Shown here piece by piece: positions 3,927-43,463 of a stretch of 64,000 bases of DNA; the stretch's first letter is position 1, and each line of letters begins with the position of its first letter. The stretch spans positions 1 to 64,000 of the forward strand of contig CALVJN010000004.1 of the NCBI GenBank assembly GCA_944332205.1, in the 5' to 3' direction. The translations under genes were made by a program, and so were the position numbers. The stretch is from an uncultured Bacilli bacterium (GTDB lineage Bacteria > Bacillota_I > Bacilli_A > RF39 > UBA660). The notes beneath the pieces were generated by a model that was given only the letters and a program-made list of their open reading frames with translations, did not search any database and had not been told where the DNA came from.

Positions 3927-3932
3927 TTTTAC

Positions 3933-4150
3933 AATTACTATGAAGTTGAGGAGTATATTATATTAAAGTTAAGAGAGTTAGTGTTGGGTGCGAACTAATA
4001 CTTTTTATAATAGAAGGTAGCAACGGAGTAGAACTTTTAAGTAAATAGAAAGTTTCCGCATTACTAGCGTTATAGGTATAAAGCTGCGTAATTTTTACGA
4101 ATTAAGGTGGTACCGCGATATTTCGTCCTTATATATATAAGGATTTTTTT
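3933..4150 (+). promoter_or_regulatory. T-box riboswitch, Val specifier
   Basis: The T-box sequence AAGGTGGTACCGCG is at 4104-4117. A terminator hairpin TCCTTATA/TATAAGGA (4126-4143) with a T-run competes with the antiterminator formed by AAGG and CGTCCTT. The upstream stem I has the AGAGAG and GGTGCGAAC elements. The presumed specifier is GTA (4017-4019), which fits the downstream valS. Uncharged tRNA-Val should stabilise the antiterminator and switch on the HD-domain gene and valS. The specifier position is inferred from alignment by eye with the second T-box in the window. Confidence 0.9.
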
Positions 4151-4163
4151 ATTGGAGGAAAGT

Positions 4164-4895
4164 ATGTTTGATTTTAATTTAGTTAATCAAAAATTTAAAG
4201 ATTATGTCAATGGGTTTGATATAAACAATGAAAAAATAATGCTAAAGTATTATCACTCATTGGAAGTAGCTAATATTAGTTATGAAATTGCTAATAGATT
4301 AAATTTAAAAGAAGAAGATAAAAATTTAGCAAAATTAATTGGTTATCTTCATGATATTGGAAGATTTGAACAAGTAACTACTACTAATAGCTTTAAAGAC
4401 AAAAATATTGACCATGCTGATATAGGAGTAAAAGTATTATTTGAAGATAAATTAATCCGTAACTTTATTAAAGATGATAAATATGATGAAATTATAAAAA
4501 AATCAATAAAATATCATAATAAATACAAAGTACCTAATTTATTAAATGAAAGAGAAAAATTATTTATTAATATAATAAGAGATAGTGATAAAATAGATAT
4601 TTTTCGAGTCAGACTAGAAAATTATAACAATGAAATTTTAGAAATTCCTAGTGTTAAAGTCTTAGAAGAAATAAATAATTGTAAATCAATTAATATTAGT
4701 GATATAAAAAACAAAACAGATTCTCTTTTGTGTGTTATGGCTTTTATATTTGATTTTAATTATAAAGAAAGTATAGAAATTTTGAAGAGCAAAGGATACT
4801 ACAAAAAGTTTTTAGATAGTATTCAAACAAATGATATTAATAAAGAATTAATTAATAAAATAAAAACAAAATTATTGGAAAAATTAGAGGTGTAA
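4164..4895 (+). CDS. HD-domain phosphohydrolase
   Basis: A 243-residue cytosolic metal-dependent phosphohydrolase of the HD superfamily. The ligands visible are His in 'YYHSLEVAN' (about residue 28), the HD pair in 'GYLHDIGRFEQ' (about 73) and a later 'RDSDKIDIFR'. The substrate is unknown; related proteins act on nucleotides. The start is ATG 4164 with GGAGG 6 bases upstream; an earlier in-frame GTG at 4107 lies inside the T-box and is not a start. It ends one base before valS, so both are under the Val T-box, an unexpected partner for a synthetase. Confidence 0.8.
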   Translation: MFDFNLVNQKFKDYVNGFDINNEKIMLKYYHSLEVANISYEIANRLNLKEEDKNLAKLIGYLHDIGRFEQVTTTNSFKDKNIDHADIGVKVLFEDKLIRNFIKDDKYDEIIKKSIKYHNKYKVPNLLNEREKLFINIIRDSDKIDIFRVRLENYNNEILEIPSVKVLEEINNCKSINISDIKNKTDSLLCVMAFIFDFNYKESIEILKSKGYYKKFLDSIQTNDINKELINKIKTKLLEKLEV

Positions 4896-4896
4896 T

Positions 4897-7431
4897 ATGT
4901 TAGAAAAAAAATACGATCATAAAAGCGTTGAAAAAGATAAGTATAAAATATGGAAAGAAAAAGGATATTTTAAAGCAGGAAATGATTTATCTAAAAAACC
5001 ATTTTGCATAGTTATTCCACCACCAAATGTAACTGGTAATTTGCATTTAGGTCATGCCTTGAATGGTAGTATTCAAGATGTAATTGTTAGATATAAAAGA
5101 ATGGATGGTTATGATACACTTTGGTTACCTGGAATGGATCATGCTGCTATTGCAACAGAAGCAAAAGTAGTTAATAGATTGAAAAAAAATAATATTAATA
5201 AATATGAAATAGGAAGAGAAAAATTCTTGGATGAATGTTGGAAGTGGACTTATGAACATAAAGAAAATATTCATAAACAATGGGCAAAATTAGGAATTAG
5301 TATTGATTATTCAAGAGAAAGATTTACTTTGGATGAAGGATTAAATAAAGCTGTTTCAAAAGTTTTTGTTGATTTGTATAATGAAGGATTAATTTATCGT
5401 GGTGAAAGGATTATAAACTGGGATCCTATTGCTAAAACAGCTTTATCTAATGAAGAGGTTATTTATAAAGATGATAAAGGAGCATTTTATCATTTAAAAT
5501 ATTATATTGATGGAGAAGATAAATATTTAGAAGTAGCTACAACAAGGCCAGAAACTCTATTTGGAGATGTAGCAGTAGCAGTGCATCCAGAGGATAAACG
5601 ATATAAAAATCTAATAGGCAAAAACGTTATTTTACCTATTGTTAATAAAAAAATTCCAATTATTGCTGATACTCACGCTGATCCTAACTTTGGAACTGGT
5701 GTGGTTAAGATAACTCCTGCTCATGATCCTAATGATTTTGAAGTAGGTGAACGTCATAATTTAGAAAGAATTGTTATAATGAATGAAGATGCTACAATGA
5801 ATGAATTGACTGGTAAATATTGTGGTCTTACTCGTGAAAAATGTCGCGAAAAATTAGTTGAAGATTTAAAAGAAGCAAAATTACTAATTAAAGTAGAAGA
5901 AATGGTTCATAGTGTTGGACATAGTGAGAGAACTGATGCTGTTGTTGAACCATATTTATCTAAACAATGGTTTGTAAAAATGGATGAAATGGCAAGAGAT
6001 TTATTGTCTTCTCAAAAAAACACTAAAACTAAGATAAACTTTTTTCCTAAAAATTTTGAAAAAATATTAAAGCATTGGATGGAGAATTGCCATGACTGGT
6101 GTATATCTCGTCAATTATGGTGGGGACATAGAATACCGGCTTGGTATAAAGATAATGAAATATATGTTGGTATAGAACCTCCAAAAGGAAAAGGTTGGCT
6201 TCAAGATAACGATGTATTAGATACATGGTTTTCCAGTGCTCTATGGCCTTTTAGTACTTTAGGATGGCCAGATGAAACCGAAGATTTAAAAAGATATTTC
6301 CCTACTGATGTATTGGTAACAGCATATGATATTATCTTCTTTTGGGTAGCAAGAATGGCTTTTTCATCATTAAAACATATGAAAACAAGACCATTTAAAG
6401 ATTGTATAATTCATGGACTTATTCGTGATAAAGAAGGAAGAAAAATGTCAAAAAGCTTAGGAAATGGAATTGATCCAATGGATTTAATTGAAGACTATGG
6501 TGCAGATGCTTTAAGATTTTACTTAACAACAGCTTCTAGCATGGGAACTGATATTAGATTTGATACTGAAAAAGTATCAGCAAATTGGAATTTTATTAAT
6601 AAGCTTTGGAATGCTTCACGATTTGTGTTAATGAACATCGAAGAATTTTCTAAAAAGGATTTTTCATTAAATAATTTAAGTTTATGTGATAAATGGATTT
6701 TAACTAAGCTTAATACAACAATTAAAGAAGTTAGGCGTAATATGGATCATTATGAATTTAATAATGTAGGAGCTATTTTGTATTCTTTTATTTGGGATGA
6801 TTTTTGTGATTGGTATATTGAACTTTCTAAGGTGAATATGAATAATACAACTAAGAGCGTTTTAATTTTAACATTAACTGATATTCTTAAAATGTTACAT
6901 CCAATGATGCCTTATGTTACAGAAGAAATTTATTCAATATTACCTATAAGAGAGGCAGATTCAATTATGATTTCTGAATATCCTAAATATAATAAAAAAT
7001 ATATATTTGATGATGATAGTATAAAATTAGAAAAAATAATGAAAGATATTATTGCTATAAGAAATATGAAAGCTAATAATAATATTACAAAGGATTCAAT
7101 TATTGATATAGATGTTTCTAATGAATTTAAAAATATATATCTATCACAATTAAAAATTAAGGAAGAACAACTTTGTAAACCACATAGTAATCTTTTAGCT
7201 TCTAATTACAAATCAGAACTAATAAATATTACATATTATTATAATGGAGAAGAAAGTAAAAATAACGTAATTGAAGAAATTAAAAAATTAGAAGATTCTA
7301 TTGCTAGAAGAAAAAAATTATTAAGCAATGAAAATTACGTAAATAAAGCACCTAAAAATATAGTTGATTTAGATAGAAAAAAATTAGAAGAAGAAGAAAA
7401 ACGTCTATTAATAATAAAAAATAATAGTTAA
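4897..7431 (+). CDS. valS: valyl-tRNA synthetase
   Basis: Class I synthetase charging tRNA-Val. It has the HIGH-type motif PPPNVTGNLHLGHALN (about residue 40), an editing (CP1) domain containing 'TTRPETLFGD', a DWCISRQLWWGH block, and KMSKSLGNGIDP (about 516). The anticodon-binding region follows, then a C-terminal coiled coil rich in Lys/Glu (about 790-844) as usual for ValRS. At 844 residues it is slightly shorter than the B. subtilis enzyme. The ribosome site AGAGGTG lies in the end of the upstream HD gene. Controlled by the Val T-box leader and closed by a terminator. Confidence 0.97.
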   Translation: MLEKKYDHKSVEKDKYKIWKEKGYFKAGNDLSKKPFCIVIPPPNVTGNLHLGHALNGSIQDVIVRYKRMDGYDTLWLPGMDHAAIATEAKVVNRLKKNNINKYEIGREKFLDECWKWTYEHKENIHKQWAKLGISIDYSRERFTLDEGLNKAVSKVFVDLYNEGLIYRGERIINWDPIAKTALSNEEVIYKDDKGAFYHLKYYIDGEDKYLEVATTRPETLFGDVAVAVHPEDKRYKNLIGKNVILPIVNKKIPIIADTHADPNFGTGVVKITPAHDPNDFEVGERHNLERIVIMNEDATMNELTGKYCGLTREKCREKLVEDLKEAKLLIKVEEMVHSVGHSERTDAVVEPYLSKQWFVKMDEMARDLLSSQKNTKTKINFFPKNFEKILKHWMENCHDWCISRQLWWGHRIPAWYKDNEIYVGIEPPKGKGWLQDNDVLDTWFSSALWPFSTLGWPDETEDLKRYFPTDVLVTAYDIIFFWVARMAFSSLKHMKTRPFKDCIIHGLIRDKEGRKMSKSLGNGIDPMDLIEDYGADALRFYLTTASSMGTDIRFDTEKVSANWNFINKLWNASRFVLMNIEEFSKKDFSLNNLSLCDKWILTKLNTTIKEVRRNMDHYEFNNVGAILYSFIWDDFCDWYIELSKVNMNNTTKSVLILTLTDILKMLHPMMPYVTEEIYSILPIREADSIMISEYPKYNKKYIFDDDSIKLEKIMKDIIAIRNMKANNNITKDSIIDIDVSNEFKNIYLSQLKIKEEQLCKPHSNLLASNYKSELINITYYYNGEESKNNVIEEIKKLEDSIARRKKLLSNENYVNKAPKNIVDLDRKKLEEEEKRLLIIKNNS

Positions 7432-39147: not shown

Positions 39148-40008
39148 ATGTTTTGTTACAAAGGAAATGATAGTAGTTTAAATCATTGCGCACCATGTCT
39201 ACGAGTATATTCTGTTCCAGGCCCACAAGGAGCAACAGGACCAACAGGCCCACAAGGAATAACAGGACCAACAGGGCCAGAAGGAGCAACAGGAAATATT
39301 CAAGCAAATCCATATAATTTATATGTTCAATCTACAGCACAACCAGGAGGAGATGGAAGTCAAATTTCACCATTTCAAACAATTGAACAAGCACTAACTA
39401 TAGCAAAGACTAACGGGATTATTAATGTTTTAAGCGGAACTTATCCTATTACCCAACAGCTTGTTTTAAATATATCAGGATTAACCATTAAAGGAATGGC
39501 CGGAGCATTAATTTTACTTCGAAATTCAATAATACTATTTTTATGTAATGGTGATAACATTACAATTGATGGACTTAATATAACCAGTGATAATCCTTAT
39601 CCAGTTGAATTCATACAAATAGCAGGCGACAATAATCAAATTTTAAACTGTAAAATTTATGGACCAGAACAATTTGGCGATTCTTCAACATGGGTAGTAA
39701 ACAGAGGTTTTGTTACTCAAATAAATACAACAAATTTATTAGTAAGGAACAATATTTTTCATACCTTGAGACAACCAGCATATTTAAATCCTAATTCTAC
39801 TGGAACGATTATGGATAATGTCGTATACAATACTAGAGGATATGTAGTTGATCAAGCAATTTTTTTATTTTCTGGAAATTCTTGGGGAATTCCGGAAAAT
39901 GCAGTAGATATTGCATTGTTAGCAGGAACTAAAACAGGTGCACCATATGATCCGATTTCAGCTTTGTCATCTAGTAATAGTGGTGCTGCAGTTAGTGATC
40001 AAAGATAA
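39148..40008 (+). CDS. collagen-like beta-helix protein, possible exosporium component
   Basis: 286 residues. A short N-terminus with cysteines (about 1-22) precedes about eight collagen-type Gly-X-Y triplets (GPQGATGPTGPQGITGPTGP and on, about 25-48). The rest (about 50-270) has the short strand repeats of a right-handed parallel beta-helix, e.g. GLTIKGMAG, NITIDGLNI and NQILNCKIYG. No signal peptide or anchor is visible, as in many exosporium proteins made in the mother cell. Given SigK and coat genes in the window, a spore-surface filament role is likely but not proven. A phage tail-spike-like origin for the beta-helix is also conceivable. Confidence 0.75.
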   Translation: MFCYKGNDSSLNHCAPCLRVYSVPGPQGATGPTGPQGITGPTGPEGATGNIQANPYNLYVQSTAQPGGDGSQISPFQTIEQALTIAKTNGIINVLSGTYPITQQLVLNISGLTIKGMAGALILLRNSIILFLCNGDNITIDGLNITSDNPYPVEFIQIAGDNNQILNCKIYGPEQFGDSSTWVVNRGFVTQINTTNLLVRNNIFHTLRQPAYLNPNSTGTIMDNVVYNTRGYVVDQAIFLFSGNSWGIPENAVDIALLAGTKTGAPYDPISALSSSNSGAAVSDQR

Positions 40009-40188: not shown

Positions 40189-40386
40189 AACTTCTTGCAA
40201 AAAGAGTAATTAATGCTAATTTTTTAGAGAGAGTATAGTCGGTGAAAATACTTAAATTTAATTAATGAAAGACATTTGCTTTTATGAAGACTCGTGTATT
40301 CGCGTTAAGAAGTGAGCATAATTTATTTTATGGAATTAAGGTGGCACCGCGATTTATTCGTCCTTATGTTGCTACCTTTTTATTTT
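40189..40386 (+). promoter_or_regulatory. T-box riboswitch upstream of hisS-aspS
   Basis: The T-box sequence AAGGTGGCACCGCG lies at 40338-40351. AAGGTGGCA can pair with TGCTACCTT (about 40370-40378) to form the terminator, followed by TTTTTA, or AAGG can pair with the CCTT of CGTCCTT in the antiterminator. Stem I includes AGAGAG and CGGTGAAAATAC. At the position equivalent to GTA of the valS leader the sequence is GAC (40271-40273, Asp), overlapping CAT (40273-40275, His). It should respond to uncharged tRNA-Asp, and possibly tRNA-His. Confidence 0.9.
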
Positions 40387-40399
40387 AGGAGGAATATGT

Positions 40400-41728
40400 A
40401 TGATAAGTAAACCAAAAGGATGTTACGATATTTATGGTGAAACTGCTAAAAAATGGCAATACGTTAATAAAATTATTGATTCGTTAATGGAAAAATATAA
40501 CTACAACTATATAAGAACACCAATATTTGAATCAAGTGAACTTTTTCATCGTGGAATTGGTGAAACAGCGGATGTTGTAACTAAAGAAACTTATGATTTT
40601 AATGATAGGGCAAATCGTAATATGACACTTCGACCTGAAGGAACAGCAGGGATTGTTAGAAGCTATATAGAAAACAAAATGTATGGAGATGCTAATCAAC
40701 CAATAAAATTATATTATAATGGTACTATGTATAGATATGAAAGACCACAGTCAGGTAGAGATAGAGAATTCACACAATTTGGTGTTGAAGTTTTAGGTGC
40801 TGATGATCCTATGGTTGACGCAGAAGTTATTTCTATACCAGTTGTTCTTTTATCTATGTTAGGTTTAAAAGGAATTAAAGTAAAAATTAATTCTTTAGGG
40901 GATAGAGAATCACGCGATAATTATCGTAATGCTTTATTAGATTATTTTAGACCTCATATTAAAGAGTTGTGTGAAGATTGTAATGACAGATTGGAAAAAA
41001 ATCCACTTAGAATTTTGGATTGTAAGGTTGATAAAGATAATCCATTGTTGAAAGATGCTCCTAAAACACTTGATTATTTGAATGAAGAAAGTAAGAAAAG
41101 ATTTGAAGAAGTAAAGTCTTTTCTTGATGAGCTAGGAGTTGATTACGAAGTCGATTATCGAATAGTAAGAGGATTAGATTATTACAATCACACAGTTTTT
41201 GAAATAGAAGCTGATGTTGAAGGCTTTGGTTCTAATAATGTTTTAGCAGGAGGAGGACGTTATAATGGATTAGTAGATACTTTAGGAGGCCCAAATACAT
41301 CATGCATTGGATTTGCTTGCGGAATTGGAAGAATTATTCAAGCACTAGATTTAGAAAAAGTTAGATTACCTATAATTGATGATATTGAAGTTTTTGTAAT
41401 GTATGTATCTGAAACTGAAAAAAAGTATGCAACTTCATTAGTTCAATATTTACGTGGTAATGGATTTCGTGTAGAAACAGTATACACTAAGCGTGGATTA
41501 AAAGCTCAATTTAAACAAGCTGATAGACTAAAAAGTAAGTATTTGATAATTTTAAATGATGACGATTTAAAAAATGATGAAATAAAGATAAAAAACAATA
41601 AAACAAAAGAAGAAGAATTAATAGGAATTGATTACTTAATATATTATTTAGATGAACATTTAAGTGATGAAATTTCAGATTTAGATTATGATGAATGTAG
41701 ATGTGGAGGTCATGATGAAAAGATATAA
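40400..41728 (+). CDS. hisS: histidyl-tRNA synthetase
   Basis: Class II synthetase, 442 residues. It begins KPKGCYDIYGETAKKWQYV. Motif 2 lies in YERPQSGRDREFTQFGVEVL (about 114-133), the histidine-specific region is RGLDYYNHTVFEI, and motif 3 is in SCIGFACGIGRII. A C-terminal anticodon domain follows, with a His/Cys-rich tail (DECRCGGHDEK). GGAGGAATATGT precedes ATG. It overlaps aspS by 14 bases; both follow the T-box. Confidence 0.96.
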   Translation: MISKPKGCYDIYGETAKKWQYVNKIIDSLMEKYNYNYIRTPIFESSELFHRGIGETADVVTKETYDFNDRANRNMTLRPEGTAGIVRSYIENKMYGDANQPIKLYYNGTMYRYERPQSGRDREFTQFGVEVLGADDPMVDAEVISIPVVLLSMLGLKGIKVKINSLGDRESRDNYRNALLDYFRPHIKELCEDCNDRLEKNPLRILDCKVDKDNPLLKDAPKTLDYLNEESKKRFEEVKSFLDELGVDYEVDYRIVRGLDYYNHTVFEIEADVEGFGSNNVLAGGGRYNGLVDTLGGPNTSCIGFACGIGRIIQALDLEKVRLPIIDDIEVFVMYVSETEKKYATSLVQYLRGNGFRVETVYTKRGLKAQFKQADRLKSKYLIILNDDDLKNDEIKIKNNKTKEEELIGIDYLIYYLDEHLSDEISDLDYDECRCGGHDEKI

Positions 41729-43463
41729 TAATGCACAATTTAATATTGAAGATGTTGGAAAGAAAGTAGAGCTTTATGGCTGGGTTCAAAAGAAAAGAAA
41801 TTTAGGAGGTCTCGTTTTTATCGATTTAAGAGATCGCTCTGGAATAATTCAAGTAGTTATTACGCCAGAAAATGAATACTATGATTTAGCTTCATCATTA
41901 AAAAGTGAATCAGTAATAAGTGTTACAGGAACAATAAGTGAAAGAGAAAGCAAAAATTTAAAACTTAAAACTGGTGATATAGAAGTATTAACAGATAAAT
42001 TAGAACTAATCAACCCTTCAATTGATATTCCTTTTGAAATATTGGATGATACAACAGCGCTTGAAGATACAAGATTGAAATACCGCTATTTAGATATAAG
42101 ACGTGATGCAATTAAAAATAATCTTATTTTACGTCATAATGTTACGATGATTACAAGGAATTTTTTATCTGAAAGCGGGTTTATAGAAGTTGAAACTCCA
42201 ATTTTATGCGTTCCAACTCCAGAAGGTGCTAGAGACTACTTAGTTCCTTCAAGAATTTCTAATGGAAATTTTTATGCTCTACCACAGTCTCCGCAAATTT
42301 TTAAACAGCTTTTAATGATAGGTGGAATAGAAAAATATTTTCAAATTGCAAGATGCTTTCGTGATGAAGATTTACGTGCTGATAGACAACCAGAATTTAC
42401 GCAAATTGATATTGAAATGAGTTTTTCTTCTGAAGATGATATATTTTCAGTAGTAGAAGGTTTAATGAAAGAAATTTTTAAAAAAGTAAAAAATATTGAA
42501 TTAGATAAATTTGAAAGACTTACTTATGATGAATGTATTAATCGTTTTGGAACGGATAAACCTGATACTAGATATGAGATGGAAATAGTTGATATTACAG
42601 AAATATTTAGTAAAACTTTCTTTGAAATTTTTAGTAATATAATAGCAAATGGTGGAATAATAAATGCAATTGTATTAAGAGATTTAGCTTCTACAGTATC
42701 ACGAAAAGATATTGATAAATATACTGAATTTGTAAAAATATATAAAGCTAAAGCATTGTCATATCTAAAATATAACAATGGAATTTTATCCGGGTCTATT
42801 TCAAAGATATTAAACGATAAAGAACAAGAAAGTCTTATTGATAAATTAAACTTGAAAGAAAACGATATGGTTTTTATTGTTGCAGATAAAAAGCAAATTG
42901 TAAAAACTGCTTTAGGCGCATTAAGAATTAAATTAGCTAATCAATATAATTTGATAAACAATGAAATTTATAATTTCTTATGGGTTACGGACTTTCCGAT
43001 GTTTGAGTATTCAGAGGAAGAGAAAAGATATGTAGCTGCTCATCATCCATTTACTTCTCCAAGATTAGAAGACGTTGATAAGCTTCTTACTGATAAGGAA
43101 AATTGTTATTCTCGTGCATATGATTTGGTTTTAAATGGATATGAATTACTTAGTGGTTCAGTTAGAATTCATGATAGTTTTGTTCAAGAAAAAGTCTTTG
43201 AAGCAATTAACATGACACCTAAAGAAGCTGAAGAAAAATTTGGATTCTTTTTAGAAGCTTTTAAGTACGGAGCACCACCACATTGTGGAGTAGGTATTGG
43301 TCTTGAAAGATTAATTATGATACTTGCCAATACTGATAATATTAGAGACGTTGTAGCATTTCCTAAAACTGCCAGCGCATCATGTTTAATGACTGAAGCT
43401 CCAAATAAAGTAAGCTCTAAACAGCTTTCAGAATTGGGAATAGAAGTTATAAACAATAAGTAA
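41715..43463 (+). CDS. aspS: aspartyl-tRNA synthetase
   Basis: Class II synthetase of about 582 residues. It has an N-terminal OB anticodon domain (YGWVQKKRNLGGLVFIDLRD), motif 2 CFRDEDLRADRQPEFTQID (about 213), a bacterial GAD insertion domain (about 290-400) and motif 3 GVGIGLERLIMIL. The start is ATG 41715 (or 41712), with GGAGGT inside the hisS end; in-frame codons further upstream are hisS-internal. Translation is coupled to hisS. A terminator follows. Confidence 0.96.
   Translation: MKRYNNAQFNIEDVGKKVELYGWVQKKRNLGGLVFIDLRDRSGIIQVVITPENEYYDLASSLKSESVISVTGTISERESKNLKLKTGDIEVLTDKLELINPSIDIPFEILDDTTALEDTRLKYRYLDIRRDAIKNNLILRHNVTMITRNFLSESGFIEVETPILCVPTPEGARDYLVPSRISNGNFYALPQSPQIFKQLLMIGGIEKYFQIARCFRDEDLRADRQPEFTQIDIEMSFSSEDDIFSVVEGLMKEIFKKVKNIELDKFERLTYDECINRFGTDKPDTRYEMEIVDITEIFSKTFFEIFSNIIANGGIINAIVLRDLASTVSRKDIDKYTEFVKIYKAKALSYLKYNNGILSGSISKILNDKEQESLIDKLNLKENDMVFIVADKKQIVKTALGALRIKLANQYNLINNEIYNFLWVTDFPMFEYSEEEKRYVAAHHPFTSPRLEDVDKLLTDKENCYSRAYDLVLNGYELLSGSVRIHDSFVQEKVFEAINMTPKEAEEKFGFFLEAFKYGAPPHCGVGIGLERLIMILANTDNIRDVVAFPKTASASCLMTEAPNKVSSKQLSELGIEVINNK

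Follow-up and report, generated by a model that had tools for sequence, protein, structure and literature searches.

A T-box leader with a GAC specifier and an overlapping histidine triplet upstream of hisS-aspS in an uncultured Bacilli bacterium

The hisS-aspS operon and its leader RNA

The window—the whole 64,000-nucleotide stretch of DNA that was analyzed (positions 1 to 64,000 of contig CALVJN010000004.1)—comes from an uncultured bacterium whose lineage is Bacilli-type, not clostridial, and whose close relatives are labeled "uncultured Bacilli" or "Tenericutes." On its forward strand, which carries all of the leader and operon features described here, a T-box leader RNA (40190–40368) lies directly upstream of hisS, which encodes a histidine–tRNA ligase (40400–41728; NCBIfam TIGR00442, 469 bits) and is followed by aspS, which encodes an aspartate–tRNA ligase (41712–43463; NCBIfam TIGR00459 and NF001750, 781 and 821 bits, respectively). 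The aspS open reading frame opens at 41688, and a start at 41712 or 41715 is more likely. Just upstream of the leader, 39148–40008 encodes a short protein with collagen-like repeats (GPQGATGPTGPQG) whose tail is repetitive. Elsewhere in the window, within 3931–7431, a T-box with a GTA (Val) specifier is followed first by a gene ending at 4895 that probably encodes an HD-domain hydrolase, and next by valS (4897–7431). In relatives, Val T-boxes are again seen ahead of similar genes (L309, L316, L329, L338, and L352).

The leader matches RF00230 over the complete model (1–219) with a cmscan score of 96.5 bits (E = 6e-20), which exceeds the gathering score of 93. In the Rfam alignment, Stem I contains an AGAGA motif (40226–40230) and an apical GGTG motif (40241–40244). 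The specifier loop has AAGAGTA (40202–40208) on its 5′ side and GAA (40267–40269) on its 3′ side, and is closed by a lower helix in which a 5′ arm GCAAA (40197–40201) pairs with a 3′ arm TTTGC (40275–40279). Stem I was read from the Rfam alignment and a motif-plus-helix parser, not from single-sequence folding, in which the T-box fold of Stem I was not recovered (z = 0.27). Further downstream, an antiterminator AAGG(UGGCACC)...CCTT (40338–40365; Rfam alignment and sequence) carries the T-box bulge UGGC (40342–40345). It overlaps the 5′ arm of a competing intrinsic terminator (40338–40386; RNA fold of −13.8 kcal/mol, z = −2.3), which consists of the arms AAGGTGGCA (40338–40346) and TGCTACCTT (40370–40378) followed by a T-rich tract. 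Together, the terminator with its T-rich tract and the antiterminator indicate putative transcriptional control of hisS-aspS.

Specifier frame and matching tRNA

The first-pass annotation had described this leader as a hisS-aspS T-box with GAC as specifier, which holds in every part, and had placed GAC (Asp) at 40271–40273 and an overlapping CAT (His) at 40273–40275, which is exact to the nucleotide. Codons for both encoded functions are thus present within 40271–40275, and the question is which of them is read. When the specifier loop (GAA-A-GAC-A-UUUGC) is aligned to the covariance model, the Rfam consensus GAA-a-uuc-a-CC lies over GAA-A-GAC-A-UU. GAC falls in the canonical specifier columns, confirming the annotated frame, and A40274 is the conserved purine directly 3′ of the specifier, for which a structural role has been described (PMC7583486). 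The remaining base of CAT, T40275, starts the lower Stem I helix, where its 5′ partner is A40201. This closing pair covaries within the genus, because it is A-T in leaders with GACAU, as here, and G-C in sister species with GACAC. Reading CAU would take the conserved purine as second base of the codon and disrupt the closing pair; with two pairs opened, the lower helix would be down to three. It would also require a G-U wobble with the only tRNA-His detected in the genome (anticodon GTG), and in TBDB only 5% of the His specifiers predicted are CAU (PMC7778990).

The 3′ ends of the two tRNAs separate them further. The only tRNA-Asp detected in the genome has an anticodon (GTC) that matches the GAC specifier, as does the amino acid of the aspS product encoded in the operon, and it has G as discriminator (end G-CCA), while the discriminator of tRNA-His is C (end C-CCA). 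The UGGC bulge is complementary to the GCCA end of tRNA-Asp, matching its G73 and not the C73 of tRNA-His. C73 cannot pair with the C of UGGC, although a three-base UGG:CCA contact could still form. Among GAC hisS leaders, the variable base of the bulge is C in 54/90, which share UGGC with the leader in the window, and U in the other 36/90, but never A or G, whereas 57 of 59 other T-boxes have U at this position and the remaining 2 have C (p = 9e-14). Both C and U are able to pair with G73, and the bulge composition fits tRNA-Asp as the predicted ligand of GAC hisS leaders. The proposal that CAT serves as a His specifier is therefore not supported: its third base is paired in Stem I and covaries as A-T or G-C, and UGGC mismatches the C discriminator of tRNA-His.

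We consider it likely that the leader works as a conventional T-box attenuator of transcription, with GAC as the triplet through which uncharged tRNA-Asp is sensed, and that CAT is an incidental His triplet. When aspartyl-tRNA is scarce, the GUC anticodon of uncharged tRNA-Asp would pair with GAC, while its GCCA end would pair with the UGGC bulge and hold the antiterminator (40338–40365) against the terminator, which would allow RNA polymerase to run on into hisS-aspS. HisRS would be regulated as well because its gene is in the same operon as aspS. This account combines computed results (the motifs, the geometry of pairing, the tRNA matches, and the comparison across leaders) with steps of tRNA binding and switching that are inferred from how T-boxes are known to work.

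The overlapping His triplet in relatives and controls

We gathered hisS leaders from the same genus and family, from the class, and from named genomes. Of these, 122 had a T-box core and a specifier region that could be assigned, with GAC in 90, AAC in 31, and another specifier in 1. The parser needs GAA and AGTA/AGCA. For about 43 hisS leaders it gave no placement or a wrong one, and these were read by eye from their sequence, as were several of the Asn and Tyr control specifiers. The leader of L078 (AAC-A-A) was excluded from the GAC and AAC counts. A phylum-wide search with the GAC pattern returned mostly Bacilli and known hisS leaders. One match (L399, G121:C21:14467-14564) lies upstream of asnS; with GAAAGACGCAAG it fits the GAC T-box pattern and seems to place an Asp specifier ahead of this gene.

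An overlapping CAY is present in 73/90 GAC hisS leaders (81%) and in 34/45 asnS, asnB, and tyrS controls (Fisher p = 0.50), the leaders being related to one another and the counts behind the Fisher tests not independent. Split by specificity, the controls with CAY are 20/23 for Asn (87%; p = 0.76) and 14/22 for Tyr (64%; p = 0.09). Where A follows the NAC specifier, a pyrimidine comes next in 73/82 GAC hisS leaders and 34/39 controls (p = 0.77). The closing base of the lower helix is a pyrimidine in 55/56 well-parsed non-His T-boxes of all specificities, its being paired partly by construction in that the parser sets the helix start by pairing. The same genome provides controls without any His gene: the leaders of asnS (GAA-U-AAC-A-UUUG) and asnB (GAAAG-AAC-A-CUUCG), two genes that we named from their sequences, both carry an overlapping CAY. 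More widely, the asnS, asnB, and tyrS T-boxes of the genomes sampled share with the hisS-aspS leader a NAC specifier, the conserved A, a pyrimidine in the closing pair, and the CAY by-product, but they differ from it in having no His gene and, in nearly all cases, UGGU rather than UGGC. L324, from the same genus, encodes a stand-alone AspRS of the aspartate–tRNA(Asn) ligase type; hisS is absent, and the T-box (133 bits) shows GAC-A-C.

CAY would thus arise by default, because the last base of a NAC specifier is followed by the conserved A and by the pyrimidine that closes the lower helix, which would make the CAT in the window a by-product of T-box anatomy. An overlapping His codon taken alone is uninformative because a NAC specifier usually precedes A and a pyrimidine and, judged from these sequences, the GAC/CAT overlap is no more than chance would give. 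Claims of overlapping specifiers can be held against this simple null, under which about three-quarters of Asn, Tyr, and Asp T-boxes are expected to show a His codon in the overlap. Of the dual Asp/His sensor put forward in the first-pass annotation, the Asp half stands, with GAC in the specifier columns and a fitting UGGC, but the His half does not, CAY being equally common in NAC T-boxes that have nothing to do with His. A double sensor is unsupported because most switches with a NAC specifier show an overlapping His codon anyway.

The distribution of CAY among relatives agrees with the second codon not being conserved beyond T-box anatomy. GACAY is kept throughout the genus, CAY being present in all nine same-genus leaders. 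Wide conservation of GACAY was initially taken as support for a dual sensor, and was abandoned as such after the Asn and Tyr controls. In a same-family set of 34 leaders from genome searches, GAC is present in 34/34 and CAY in 25/34. On a HisRS tree (FastTree), CAY switches between presence and absence about 12 times within the GAC leaders, and the group with GAC but without CAY requires at least nine changes when only strongly supported branches are counted. The annotation had pointed to conservation of GACAY in relatives as a check, with loss of CAY while GAC is kept as the outcome contrary to dual sensing, and 17 leaders across several relatives show just this loss. Examples with intact hisS-aspS T-boxes by Rfam are Exiguobacterium (L139; GACCC, 132 bits), Aliibacillus (L107; GACGC, 120 bits), and an uncultured Bacilli bacterium (L091; GACGT, 90 bits).

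Alternative readings and known hisS-aspS leaders

The overlap of GAC with a His codon in hisS-aspS T-boxes is already known. It was published in 2009 by Gutierrez-Preciado et al., who are cited for GACAC in such leaders and for the idea of two alternative structures (PMC5313534 and PMC4342826). As represented there, these T-boxes of Bacilli/Lactobacilli have the same operon, a GAC specifier, and an overlapping His codon, while the leader in the window differs in having CAU instead of CAC, in being compact, and in belonging to an uncultured, small-genome Bacilli lineage. A further parallel, as cited in PMC4052509, is the two-codon T-box of Clostridium acetobutylicum (Saad et al. 2013), in which two overlapping codons, for Asn and Glu, likewise give two amino acid outputs. 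For that T-box both tRNAs are reported to bind, but the leader described here is known from its sequence and its second codon is no commoner than in unrelated T-boxes.

These precedents lend some plausibility to a dual sensor, in which tRNA-Asp would be read at GAC, and tRNA-His at CAU once one or two pairs had opened at the top of the lower helix and the tRNA had slid by two bases, so that a shortage of either would induce the operon. Both codons are present and correspond to the two genes, GACAY is retained across the genus, binding of two tRNAs to overlapping codons has the C. acetobutylicum precedent (as cited in PMC4052509), and alternative structures have been proposed for hisS-aspS leaders themselves (as cited in PMC4342826). 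We nevertheless regard it as unlikely. CAY is not enriched over the Asn and Tyr controls and has been lost repeatedly while the operon stayed intact, the tRNA-His discriminator mismatches UGGC, and CAU, a rare His specifier, carries the cost in wobble and helix pairs set out above. In addition, GACAC was thought by Gutierrez-Preciado et al., according to PMC5313534, to pair mainly with tRNA-Asp.

What keeps dual reading in consideration is that some Bacilli have lost GAC and retained CAY. In hisS-aspS leaders of Bacillaceae and Planococcaceae, GAC is replaced by AAC (GAACAC, AACAC, and AACAU) with CAY retained in 30/31. Such leaders would have to sense either tRNA-His in a shifted register (CAC/CAU) or tRNA-Asn, and the bulge in Planococcaceae, UGGA, can pair neither with G73 nor with C73. 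Because GAC was lost and CAY kept in these families, a dual ancestor is possible. The leader in the window might then retain the ancestral hisS-aspS state, with tRNA-Asp read at GAC and tRNA-His at CAU in two registers, while Asp reading alone would survive in some Bacilli (GACNN) and the shifted triplet alone in others (AACAY). We give this scenario a small chance. Lineages in which the triplets are separated, GAC without CAY or AAC with CAY, make the old question of hisS-aspS sensing directly testable. Across L095–L153 (Bacillaceae and Planococcaceae), AAC occupies the canonical specifier frame (GAATGAACACTCC, GAATAACAC, and GAACAACAT), the Planococcaceae having a TGGA core. The hisS-aspS leader of Bacillus sp. 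BA3 (L134, 3159–3395; 115 bits) has AACCC, that is, AAC with neither GAC nor CAY.

Two other readings fare worse than sensing of tRNA-Asp via GAC. It is very improbable that the leader is a degenerate one that responds poorly to any tRNA, as might be suspected from a reduced genome of 1.25 Mb, a moderate Rfam score, and Stem II columns of RF00230 that are mostly unmatched, because all essential motifs are conserved, the leader persists in close relatives with compensatory changes, and its UGGC suits tRNA-Asp. Least probable is a sensor for His only, with CAU functional and GAC incidental, for which hisS being the first gene and CAY being the only one of the two triplets left in Bacillaceae and Planococcaceae might be invoked. 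Against it, GAC occupies the canonical columns and is present in every leader of the 34-leader family set, 9/34 of which have no CAY, and UGGC fits tRNA-Asp.

Two further arrangements were seen among the collected hisS regions. Upstream of hisS in L163, L164, L071, and L077 there is an apparent T-box with a very short Stem I that has no AGAGA or GGTG, and an Rfam scan of L163, L164, and L071 gave no match at E 0.01. In these four, GAC lies in a hairpin loop (e.g., AAGG-AGTGACG-CCCTT) followed by a TGGCACC core, and CAY is lost. In L078 (2512–2696), the apparent gene order is hisS-asnS-aspS; with asnS added to the other two genes, the leader carries an Asn specifier (AAC-A-A).
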